The notes beneath the pieces are model-generated. The model saw nothing but the letters and a program-made list of their open reading frames with translations, had not been told where the DNA came from and did not search any database. A DNA stretch of 40,621 nucleotides, taken from assembly GCA_017430925.1 (NCBI GenBank), contig JAFRMA010000068.1:1-40621 (forward strand), written 5' to 3'. Made by a program: the position numbers and the translations under genes. This DNA comes from Solobacterium sp. (GTDB lineage: Bacteria > Bacillota_I > Bacilli_A > Erysipelotrichales > Erysipelotrichaceae). Shown here piece by piece: positions 6,512 through 8,761 of this stretch. Positions within the stretch are counted from its first letter, which is position 1. Every line of letters starts with the position of its first letter.

Positions 6512-7027
6512 ATGGGTTTATTCAGTAATTTATTTGGTAAGAAAGAAGAGCCGAAAATCGAACCGATTCCCGGAGATTTTTCTGATGATATGATCATTGC
6601 CCCTGTAACAGGAACATATCTGCCGACAAAAGACATCAGCGATCCGGTGTTTGCGGATGAAACACTGGGTCAGACAGCCGCATTTGTTCCGTCCAAGGGT
6701 ATTATCTACGCTCCGGTCAACGGTACGATTGATATGCTGGCAGATACTGCTCATGCTTTCAGTATGACGATGGCAGATGAAACCCAGGTACTCGTTCATG
6801 TCGGTATCGATACAGTAGGATTGAATGGTAAGGGATTTAAGATCCTGGCCCAGAAAGGCAGTACTGTAAAGGCAGGTACACCGGTTATTTCCGCGGACCT
6901 GGATGTCATTAAAAATGCCGGTCTGGATACAGCTGTTATGTTGATCCTGGTAGATGTTCCGGAAGGAAAGACAGTTACCTTCAAGGAACTCGCTAATGTT
7001 GAAGCAGGCGCAGTAATCAACGAGTAG
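6512..7027 (+). CDS. PTS glucose-type EIIA component
   Basis: 171 aa, single-domain EIIA of the Crr type. His96 in LVHVGIDTVGLNGKGF is the expected phosphorylation site and His81 is the conserved partner histidine. It would accept phosphate from HPr and pass it to Cys26 of the EIIB domain encoded upstream, completing the permease that lacks its own EIIA. I chose ATG 6512 because AAAGGA lies nine bases upstream; an in-frame TTG six bases earlier has poorer spacing. The gene follows the glucosidase stop codon by two bases. Confidence 0.93.
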   Translation: MGLFSNLFGKKEEPKIEPIPGDFSDDMIIAPVTGTYLPTKDISDPVFADETLGQTAAFVPSKGIIYAPVNGTIDMLADTAHAFSMTMADETQVLVHVGIDTVGLNGKGFKILAQKGSTVKAGTPVISADLDVIKNAGLDTAVMLILVDVPEGKTVTFKELANVEAGAVINE

Positions 7028-7053
7028 ATTCACATATAATACGCAAAGACAGA

Positions 7054-7085
7054 AAGCAGGTATCTCTGATGGATACCTGCTTTTC
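7054..7085. terminator. Bidirectional terminator after the beta-glucoside operon
   Basis: AAGCAGGTATC and GATACCTGCTT form an 11-bp stem with a 7-base loop, followed by TTC on the plus strand and TTTCTGTCTTT on the minus strand. It sits between the EIIA gene and the convergent minus-strand unit. Confidence 0.85.
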
Positions 7086-7093
7086 TCATACCT

Positions 7094-7255
7094 TCACAGA
7101 TATAGGAAGAACAGGATACTGAGCAGGTATGCGATTCCCCGTGGAAACAGACACAGCCCGGCAGATTCTTTCATCCGTGTATAAGGAAGCGCAAGGAAAG
7201 GATCCTGTGTTCCTTCAGGAACATAGAACCGGATATATTCGTAATTTCTTGGCAT
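7094..7255 (-). CDS. Possible 53-aa membrane peptide
   Basis: The ATG lies four bases after the stop codon of the DEDD-repeat gene, and the TGA falls nine bases before the shared terminator, which is where the last gene of that unit would end. The peptide begins MPRNYEYIRFYVPEG and ends in a hydrophobic segment (GIAYLLSILFFLYL) that could span or enter the membrane. The ribosome binding site is weak (AGAAGAGA), so it would depend on translational coupling. I do not recognise the family; a 52-codon ORF on the opposite strand (7129-7287) is less well placed. Confidence 0.4.
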   Translation of the reverse strand: MPRNYEYIRFYVPEGTQDPFLALPYTRMKESAGLCLFPRGIAYLLSILFFLYL

Positions 7256-7259
7256 GGGA

Positions 7260-8132
7260 TTATCTCTTCTGTTTATTCATCTCATAGCGGAATAAGGTGC
7301 GGATATCATCCTCGTCCATAAAGGGATAGATCAGATCAAAGTCAGCGGTAATTTTTCCTGCCATGTAATCTTTCATTAGTTTATGCAGAGCATCTTTAGA
7401 GACAAAGGGTAAATATTCCTGCCAGTTTTCATTGCGGATCAGTGCATAGCGGAAACAGGTATCTATACTGTCTTCATCCATGAAAGGAAGAAGTTCCATC
7501 AGATTTACAGATCTGTGGTTTCTTACCAGCTGTACTGCAATTTCACCGACGTCATCTTCATCAAGGAAGAGGGCGAACTTTACCAGCAGGGATGGATTCT
7601 CAGGAACTATGTCCTTTACGATATCCGCCAGGTCATCCTCATCCATGTTTTTGATTACGTTATAGTCATTCAGAAGACTGCTGATATCCTCGCCGATCTC
7701 TGCCGCACAGCGTATACATTCAGCTGTGCCGTCCTCATCCAGGAACGGAATCAGGGCAGTCAGATCTATGGATACTCCAAGTTTCATCAAATCTACGGCT
7801 ATTTCGCAGAGATCATCTTCATCAAGACAGGGAGCCATCATAGCCAGTAGAGAAGGATGGGCAGGGGTGATCTTCTCAGCAAGGTCTGCCAGGTCGTCTT
7901 CGTCCAGCTTACGAATCAAGGGTTTTATAACAGATTCATCCGCAAATACTCGTTCAAGTTCTTCTTCATTAAGTGACCGGAGAACTTCACCAAGGTCATC
8001 CTCATCAATATAGTGAAGTACTTCCTTAAGACTGATTCCCTGATAAACAAGATCCTCGGATTTCAGAACATTCCTGGCCAGAATCAGCAGTTCTTCACTT
8101 TCCAGATACGGAAGCATATGTTTAATGTTCAT
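7260..8132 (-). CDS. Acidic DEDD-repeat protein, function unknown
   Basis: 290 aa, built almost entirely of helical repeats of about 27-34 residues, each opening with a hydrophobic pair and a DEDD-like box: residues 43-46, 77-80, 104-107, 132-135 (DEDG), 164-167, 191-194, 219-222 (DEDS) and 273-276, plus degenerate copies near 7-15 and 241-249. Units at 77/104/132 recur at 164/191/219, a constant offset of 87, so a three-repeat block was duplicated. There is no signal peptide or membrane segment. The start overlaps the end of the Xre regulator by 11 bases, with AGGAG seven bases before the ATG. The shape suggests a solenoid scaffold; the acidic boxes might bind protein or metal. No function is assigned. 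Confidence 0.85.
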   Translation of the reverse strand: MNIKHMLPYLESEELLILARNVLKSEDLVYQGISLKEVLHYIDEDDLGEVLRSLNEEELERVFADESVIKPLIRKLDEDDLADLAEKITPAHPSLLAMMAPCLDEDDLCEIAVDLMKLGVSIDLTALIPFLDEDGTAECIRCAAEIGEDISSLLNDYNVIKNMDEDDLADIVKDIVPENPSLLVKFALFLDEDDVGEIAVQLVRNHRSVNLMELLPFMDEDSIDTCFRYALIRNENWQEYLPFVSKDALHKLMKDYMAGKITADFDLIYPFMDEDDIRTLFRYEMNKQKR

Positions 8133-8553
8133 CAGAGCACTCCTTTCTGTCCGTTATGTATATTCGTTCTTCTTTACTGAGGTAAGGCATCAGTTCATCC
8201 ATGTTGACCGTAATCTGTCCGCAGGATATCCGGTCCAGGATCTGTTCTCTCTGGCTTGGTGACATCAGCCACATATGTTCTGCCGGGACAAATACGGTCT
8301 TCCCGTCAAGAATCTCCTGAAGCAAAAGGGAAGAGTCATTTTTCTTTTTCAGGCATAACAGTTCATCCAAGTCGGTGTCGTAGAGATCCAGCAGTAATAT
8401 ACATGAACTGATTGAAGGAAGAGTCAGTCCCTTTTCCCATCCGGACACTGCCTGCCGGGAAACATAAACCGCATCAGCAACTTCATCCTGAGTCAGACCT
8501 TTCTTTGTCCGGAGACACCGCAGACGTTCTCCGATTACTTTTGTATCAAGCAT
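8122..8553 (-). CDS. Xre-family HTH regulator with a DEDD-repeat-like tail
   Basis: 143 aa. Residues 8-62 form a clear Cro/C1-type helix-turn-helix (IGERLRCLRTKKGLTQDEVA, then VSRQAVSGWEKG). The C-terminal 60 residues are unlike a normal Xre tail: they hold MSPSQREQILDRI and MDELMPYLSKEERIYI, the latter similar to MLPYLESEELLIL at the start of the neighbouring repeat protein. This suggests that regulator and repeat protein interact or arose from a common module. AAAGGA lies before the ATG. An inverted repeat just upstream of its promoter is a candidate operator. Confidence 0.88.
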   Translation of the reverse strand: MLDTKVIGERLRCLRTKKGLTQDEVADAVYVSRQAVSGWEKGLTLPSISSCILLLDLYDTDLDELLCLKKKNDSSLLLQEILDGKTVFVPAEHMWLMSPSQREQILDRISCGQITVNMDELMPYLSKEERIYITDRKECSDEH

Positions 8554-8576
8554 GACAGTTTATCCTTTCTGAGATT

Positions 8577-8605
8577 ATGATAGATCACCACATGTATTTC
8601 GTCAC
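8577..8605 (-). promoter_or_regulatory. Promoter of the Xre / DEDD-repeat unit
   Basis: Read on the minus strand, GTGACG (8605-8600) and TATCAT (8582-8577) are separated by exactly 17 bases, placing the transcription start a few bases before the ribosome binding site of the regulator. Confidence 0.55.
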
Positions 8606-8620
8606 GCAAGTGATACTTGC
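8606..8620. promoter_or_regulatory. Perfect inverted repeat, candidate operator
   Basis: GCAAGT-GAT-ACTTGC is a perfect 6+6 palindrome with a 3-base centre, touching the -35 box of the Xre promoter and lying between it and the tRNA terminator. Its size and position fit an autoregulatory operator. Confidence 0.45.
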
Positions 8621-8644
8621 CTAAGACAAACAGAGAAGGGAATA

Positions 8645-8676
8645 AACAAAAACTCTCAGAGATAGTCCCTGAGAGT
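8645..8676 (-). terminator. Terminator of tRNA-Pro
   Basis: On the minus strand an 11-bp stem (ACTCTCAGGGA with TCTCTGAGAGT, one G-T pair) and a 3-base loop are followed by TTTTTG, eight bases after the CCA end of the tRNA. Confidence 0.9.
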
Positions 8677-8684
8677 CATTGTCA

Positions 8685-8761
<77 letters not shown>

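Follow-up and report, generated by a model that had tools for sequence, protein, structure and literature searches.

Among the described regulators closest to the system considered here are the RRNPPA proteins, in which the pheromone of the propeptide is placed at its C-terminus and Rgg and PrgX have a TPR-like fold without a TPR sequence (PMC9765709). A second point of reference is provided by the LytTR Regulatory Systems, small operons in which a regulator is paired with a partner gene and the sites lie immediately ahead of the -35 element, and for which positive feedback is reported (PMC6193735). Here we analyze a gene for an acidic, predicted solenoid protein in a 40,621-nucleotide stretch of DNA from Solobacterium sp. 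(contig JAFRMA010000068.1; this whole stretch is referred to as the window); the organism is probably a gut-dwelling member of the Erysipelotrichaceae. With somewhat better than even confidence we read the gene as the solenoid half, probably the sensing subunit, of a split, autoregulated XRE-type switch with a palindrome just ahead of the -35 of its own promoter. The reading builds on what could be drawn from sequence, namely overlap and linkage of the gene with an XRE gene, the presence in relatives of a helix-turn-helix (HTH) on the same chain as the repeats, a promoter layout common to many split and fused forms, and no match to HEAT, ARM or TPR. The features concerned are the following.

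Positions 7260 to 8132, minus strand: the solenoid gene, 290 amino acids, ATG to TAA, with ten predicted helical hairpins, eight of them carrying a DED[DGS] box.
Positions 7305 to 8006, minus strand: the stretch that holds all the DEDD-like boxes, residues 43 to 276.
Positions 8122 to 8553, minus strand: the gene of an XRE (HTH_3) regulator, 143 amino acids, HTH_3 match with E of 9e-14, whose tail can be aligned to the opening repeats of fused relatives.
Positions 8577 to 8605, minus strand: the promoter-like pair GTGACG-17-TATCAT, directly after the palindrome.
Positions 8606 to 8620, no strand: the palindrome GCAAG-N5-CTTGC, lying between 67 and 53 bases upstream of the XRE start, a candidate autoregulatory operator.

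The XRE gene lies upstream of the solenoid gene and overlaps it by 11 bases, and the pairing recurs in relatives. A first set of 23 loci comprises 15 stand-alone and 7 fused genes and one locus cut at a contig end (L047), and a same-strand XRE gene stands upstream in all 15 assessable stand-alone loci (14 plus L045). Further genomes returned 30 loci, with the open reading frame (ORF) read in 23 and the neighbors in 20, and in 20 of 20 stand-alone loci a same-strand XRE gene overlaps or lies up to 163 bases upstream, L095 and L101 being repeats of L044 and L045. A protein search gave 167 homologues; 88 of the 120 listed have HTH_3 or HTH_19 on the same chain and 32 have neither, although one of these (P0043) starts inside an HTH_3/HTH_19-type domain. 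No shared neighbor other than XRE was found outside near relatives in the ORF lists of the loci, among those listed. The XRE regulator encoded directly upstream, which in relatives is fused to the repeats, is most likely the partner that an earlier note on the window supposed the solenoid to bind. In addition, the hhalign alignment of the XRE family with the fused families extends beyond the HTH and reaches the first repeats, with probabilities of 99.8 and 99.7, values that are carried mainly by the HTH and in which the tail is not scored apart. Since the XRE tail aligns with degenerate first repeats, we infer that the solenoid begins on the XRE protein and continues, predicted as a stack, on the second one. 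An XRE dimer would bind the palindrome just upstream of its own -35 element and would likely activate its own promoter, giving positive feedback, and the solenoid would hold or release XRE upon binding of a partner.

Conservation of GCAAG-N5-CTTGC was first seen in an upstream alignment of relatives. Among 16 split loci, which were also the source of the pattern, 11 have it in the form GCAAS-N5-STTGC at most 200 bases upstream of the XRE start (shuffle mean 0.0115, maximum 1); ten of these sites lie at -73 to -61 and that of L044 at -198. Because the pattern was derived from this first set, the weight of the test falls on a second one, found by protein profile and consisting of 20 loci less the duplicates L095 and L101 and less L120, for which no start was found. 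With the pattern fixed, the site is present in 11 of these 17 loci, in each case within -71 to -62 (mean in shuffles 0.004, maximum 2), and in five of the remaining six a copy with a single mismatch lies within -73 to -65. The register with the promoter is likewise conserved, a -10 element of at least 5/6 matches being present at a spacing of 15-19 in 17 of 19 site-bearing loci where 1.45 are expected; these 19 remain from 24 rows after removal of L030, L032 and L101 as near or exact duplicates and of L044 and L095 with their -198 site. If transcription is assumed to start 7 bases past the -10, the center of the palindrome falls at -42 or -43; the -35 element is weak, with 2-5 of 6 matches to TTGACA. 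A plain promoter scan over positions 7020-8700 gave 4 pairs versus 3.7 in shuffles, no excess, so that the case for a promoter depends on the conserved register across loci. Of 16 fused genes, 8 are preceded by the variant [TG]CAA-N7-TTG[CA], which stands at -42 to -44 in register with a -10 element of 5/6 or more matches (shuffle mean 0.005, maximum 1); this looser pattern was set post hoc, L011 and L016 were left unscored because no start was found for them, and some of the eight are close kin. This promoter layout, common to split and fused forms, is the strongest sign that they belong to one system.

Several points weigh against the split-switch reading, among them the limits stated above with the hhalign probabilities, the first locus set and the fused pattern. 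Six split loci (L025, L026, L028, L035, L039 and L044) have no palindrome near the XRE start, and 8 of 16 fused genes lack the variant. The palindrome occurs at 1 place in the 2.7 Mb genome of the window versus 6 for a reversed control, at 38 versus 72 when the GTG extension is included and two mismatches are allowed, and at 101 versus 99 summed over 18 genomes; since there is no excess over control, no regulon is visible beyond the own promoter. When the AlphaFold model of a fused relative (P0038), the second such model, was searched with Foldseek, the first three matches were ComR, with PlcR, Rgg2 and PrgX within the top 20, which speaks for the reading, but over the whole chain these RRNPP matches are weak (template-modeling score 0.20-0.26, root-mean-square deviation 17-23), and VIA matches chiefly the HTH. 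Finally, a site at -43 is compatible with repression too, and the start from which it is counted is an assumed one.

This last point leads to the foremost rival, in which the sign is opposite, XRE covering the -35 element and repressing its own promoter and the solenoid serving as co-repressor or anti-repressor. The palindrome does abut the -35 element, and autorepression is common among XRE proteins. The fixed center at -42/-43 and the weak -35 found here, however, resemble activated promoters. LytTR systems with sites just upstream of -35 are moreover reported to show positive feedback (PMC6193735). We therefore consider the opposite sign unlikely; with the palindrome at about -43, counted from the assumed start, positive feedback is the more probable sign for the split switch.

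The stringent form of the site is present in 11 of 145 family genomes at 12 places, three of them in the XRE-solenoid operon and four before XRE genes of other kinds (L082, L083, L084, L089), the other five (L081, L085, L086, L090, L092) having no XRE gene behind them within the stretches read. The four read GCAAS-N5-STTGCGTG and precede genes that, judged by eye, encode XRE plus a membrane domain or XRE plus a zinc ribbon; the solenoid was not found in their genomes in the family-genome search. Sites before other XRE genes suggest that this type of site is part of a wider XRE class. In genome G071 a second site, GCAAG-N5-CTTGCGTG, lies off the operon (L092, position 1501), downstream of another XRE gene.

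The solenoid protein itself had drawn attention by its acidic boxes, and the earlier note described eight of them, at residues 43, 77, 104, 132, 164, 191, 219 and 273, all of which are present, six reading DEDD and the two at 132 and 219 reading DEDG and DEDS, respectively. A hydrophobic residue followed by DED[DGSE] occurs 8 times in the protein, whereas 20,000 shuffled versions of it contain the pattern 0.05 times on average and never more than twice. The spacing of 27-34 residues given for the boxes holds for the first six gaps (34, 27, 28, 32, 27 and 28) but not for the last, which is 54, and of the hydrophobic pair said to precede each box a single hydrophobic residue is found in all eight and a pair in only about six (the exceptions being KL at 75-76 and NM at 162-163). 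The 54-residue gap amounts to one full predicted hairpin with SKDA (residue 245) at the box position, and the first hairpin has ESEE at residue 11 in place of a box; with these boxless hairpins the model is one of ten hairpins, not of eight repeats. That a helix follows each box agrees with the model, in which each of the eight boxes is predicted to open the second helix of its hairpin, the helix starting at the residue after the first D in 8/8 cases, which is compatible with N-capping. The helical solenoid proposed from the repeats is likewise what AlphaFold2 confidently predicts (predicted local distance difference test score, pLDDT, 92.6).

The acidity of the boxes invites two further explanations. 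According to the first, DNA mimicry, the acidic edge of the solenoid occupies the HTH and keeps XRE off its operator, as the net charge of -38 might suggest, together with the location of 30 of the 66 acidic residues within the 32 residues of the eight boxes, each at the inter-helix turn of its hairpin. Four relatives (L107, L117, L118, L119) nevertheless keep the linkage to XRE without a DEDD box, so that the box is dispensable for the partnership, and we regard mimicry as improbable. No better placed, in our estimate, is a divalent-cation sensor, in which the boxes, like the MgtE N domain, would take up Mg2+ or Ca2+ and the activity of XRE would change once the solenoid is occupied. In sequence the window protein (P0001) scores 18.6 of the 25.9 bits required for MgtE_N (PF03448), and the best of 30 members, P0005, reaches 22.0, the cut-off thus not being attained; one of two compact structural matches to the solenoid is 2oux_B, which we take to be an MgtE-type entry. 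The MgtE N-terminal domain therefore shares with our protein its helical repeats and this structural match and differs in that the solenoid stays below the Pfam cut-off, is linked to XRE and is joined to no transporter. In the portion drawn on here, a review of alpha-solenoids names eight subfolds, MgtE being unmentioned there (PMC11514114).

As to the family, the expectation that no HEAT, ARM or TPR model would fit was borne out, P0001 having no HEAT, ARM, TPR, PPR or PUF match in Pfam at E up to 10 and its relatives none among their Pfam matches (E up to 0.001 or 0.01, depending on the set); for L105 an RPN6_N match stays below threshold, with 19.1 of 26.5 bits. A new repeat class may be at hand in that no curated model matches the window protein, but one relative, P0014, exceeds the cut-off of Ins_allergen_rp (PF06757; 30.5 versus 23.2, residues 87-217). 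Of 30 members 6 match that model at E<=0.01, and the window protein does not match it even with the E limit set at 10. Cut-offs are passed as well by P0033 (SAM_2) and P0038 (ArsA_HSP20 and DUF6266), and no single stretch of P0014, P0033 or P0038 passes alone; we read all of these passes as probable effects of repetitive sequence. The insect allergen related repeat thus has in common with the solenoid a repeat model and the P0014 match and differs in leaving the window protein unmatched. For TTRAP (PF14203) the window protein obtains 10.5 of 27 bits and several relatives exceed the cut-off, with up to 38.3, but as a family name TTRAP was dropped, the match covering 22-29 of 62 positions, under half of the model. 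A profile match to 2L7K (E 0.046), presumably a TTRAP protein, covers one LPFMDED-helix unit; this unit is the likeness to TTRAP, and the lack of a tandem array in the latter is the difference. Matches to other solved structures were as unconvincing as that to 2L7K (MarR/SarZ, E 0.014 and 0.019; a protein kinase, 0.011), and those to DUF3944, GatB and a phage tail-chaperone were weak.

What did not survive is the box as the definition of the repeat, since a PF[LM] hairpin is kept without DEDD in L107, L117, L118, L119, L013, L015 and L016. The first four of these are 112-126 residues long, with four PF[LM] units and no DEDD within the first 105 residues. On the sequence comparison, the acidic box is an embellishment particular to the lineage, set on a more widespread PF[LM] hairpin repeat, the units of which are mostly 26-32 residues apart. 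Fused proteins with LAPFL units are present in the Erysipelotrichaceae, the family of the window, and orthologues differ by whole repeats, P0005 carrying an extra 27-residue unit and lacking another when compared with P0001. In seven loci (L099, L101, L102, L105, L109, L112, L121) a separate MILKK...G.EI-like, often acidic N-terminal segment precedes the PF repeats.

The solenoid family occurs in 15 of 145 Erysipelotrichaceae genomes and in 1 of 6 genomes of its own genus. In a sample of the phylum it is found in 32 of 392 genomes and 23 of 154 genera, all 32 positives belonging to its own class or nearer in a sample whose class make-up is not shown. Loci in Lachnospiraceae, Oscillospiraceae and other Clostridia are all fused, and the nearest locus, L033, is from a Solobacterium metagenome-assembled genome of sheep duodenum. 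None of 61 pattern matches in viral contigs was confirmed as a relative, plasmids and phages gave no match for the 126-residue relative of L117 (the sole query), and the solenoid has no match to a toxin family in PADLOC, NCBIfam or Pfam. A toxin-antitoxin or defense pair, in which XRE would be the antitoxin and the solenoid the effector, would fit two overlapping genes with XRE first and the patchy occurrence in family and genus, but is very improbable given a solenoid with no PADLOC match at E<=0.1, these results for viral contigs, plasmids and phages, and the many relatives that are single fused chains.

Two further features complete the apparent operon.

Positions 7094 to 7255, minus strand: a small ORF of 53 amino acids with a conserved N-terminal motif IRxYVPEGxQxPFLxL and a hydrophobic C-terminus, the third gene of the apparent operon.
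Positions 7053 to 7083, minus strand: a terminator-like hairpin after the small ORF, one of 3 such hairpins in 7020-8700 versus 0.9 in shuffles.

The small ORF begins four bases past the solenoid gene and is found in 4 of 16 split loci (the window, L031, L032 and L033) and not in the 12 others. Between the window and L033 its residues 1-33 show 5 synonymous and no other changes, and residues 34-53, the hydrophobic part, show 7 synonymous and 9 other changes. A search with the protein returned itself and one 81% identical protein only; the reach of this search is short, as it missed the L031 form. In the clade of the window the 53-residue protein could serve the solenoid as a ligand anchored in the membrane, and it is a candidate for the partner on whose binding XRE would be held or released. 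The operon is closely preceded, on its own strand, by a tRNA-Pro (cgg) at 8685-8761 with a terminator-like hairpin behind it at 8651-8677.

With the split-switch reading an unnamed repeat family gains a genetic role, that of standing partner of XRE regulators, and the specific palindromic site makes the circuit testable. The starting idea is corrected as well, the striking acidic box being a decoration and not the repeat. If the solenoid is a sensor, Bacillota of gut and rumen have an overlooked class of regulators that switch themselves, a parallel to the RRNPPA receptors, and their signals could now be sought. A bolder version, which we offer tentatively and consider doubtful, is that of a TPR-free RRNPPA counterpart in Bacilli and Clostridia, made up of PF[LM] XRE-solenoid switches, split or fused, with one shared self-activating promoter layout, which in the clade of the window would read the membrane via a tail-anchored 53-residue protein, its IRxYVPEGxQxPFL segment docking on the acidic solenoid. 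No description of an XRE-solenoid module was found in the literature, judged by titles and the starts of abstracts among the matches listed.

How, then, does the locus compare with the systems named at the outset? Like the RRNPPA regulators it has an XRE HTH joined to a predicted solenoid, on one chain in fused relatives and in two overlapping genes in the window, and, in the clade of the window, a small ORF directly downstream. It differs from them in a solenoid that has no TPR sequence match and consists of PF[LM]-turn units, in the split of HTH and solenoid in the window, and in a 53-residue protein that is conserved N-terminally and hydrophobic C-terminally, unlike a propeptide. With the LytTR Regulatory Systems it shares the operon of regulator and partner and putative sites immediately upstream of the -35 element, whereas its DNA-binding domain is HTH_3 (XRE) and not LytTR, its site is a palindrome in place of direct repeats, and its partner is a predicted soluble solenoid and not a transmembrane inhibitor, a hydrophobic protein being at best the product of a third, clade-specific gene.
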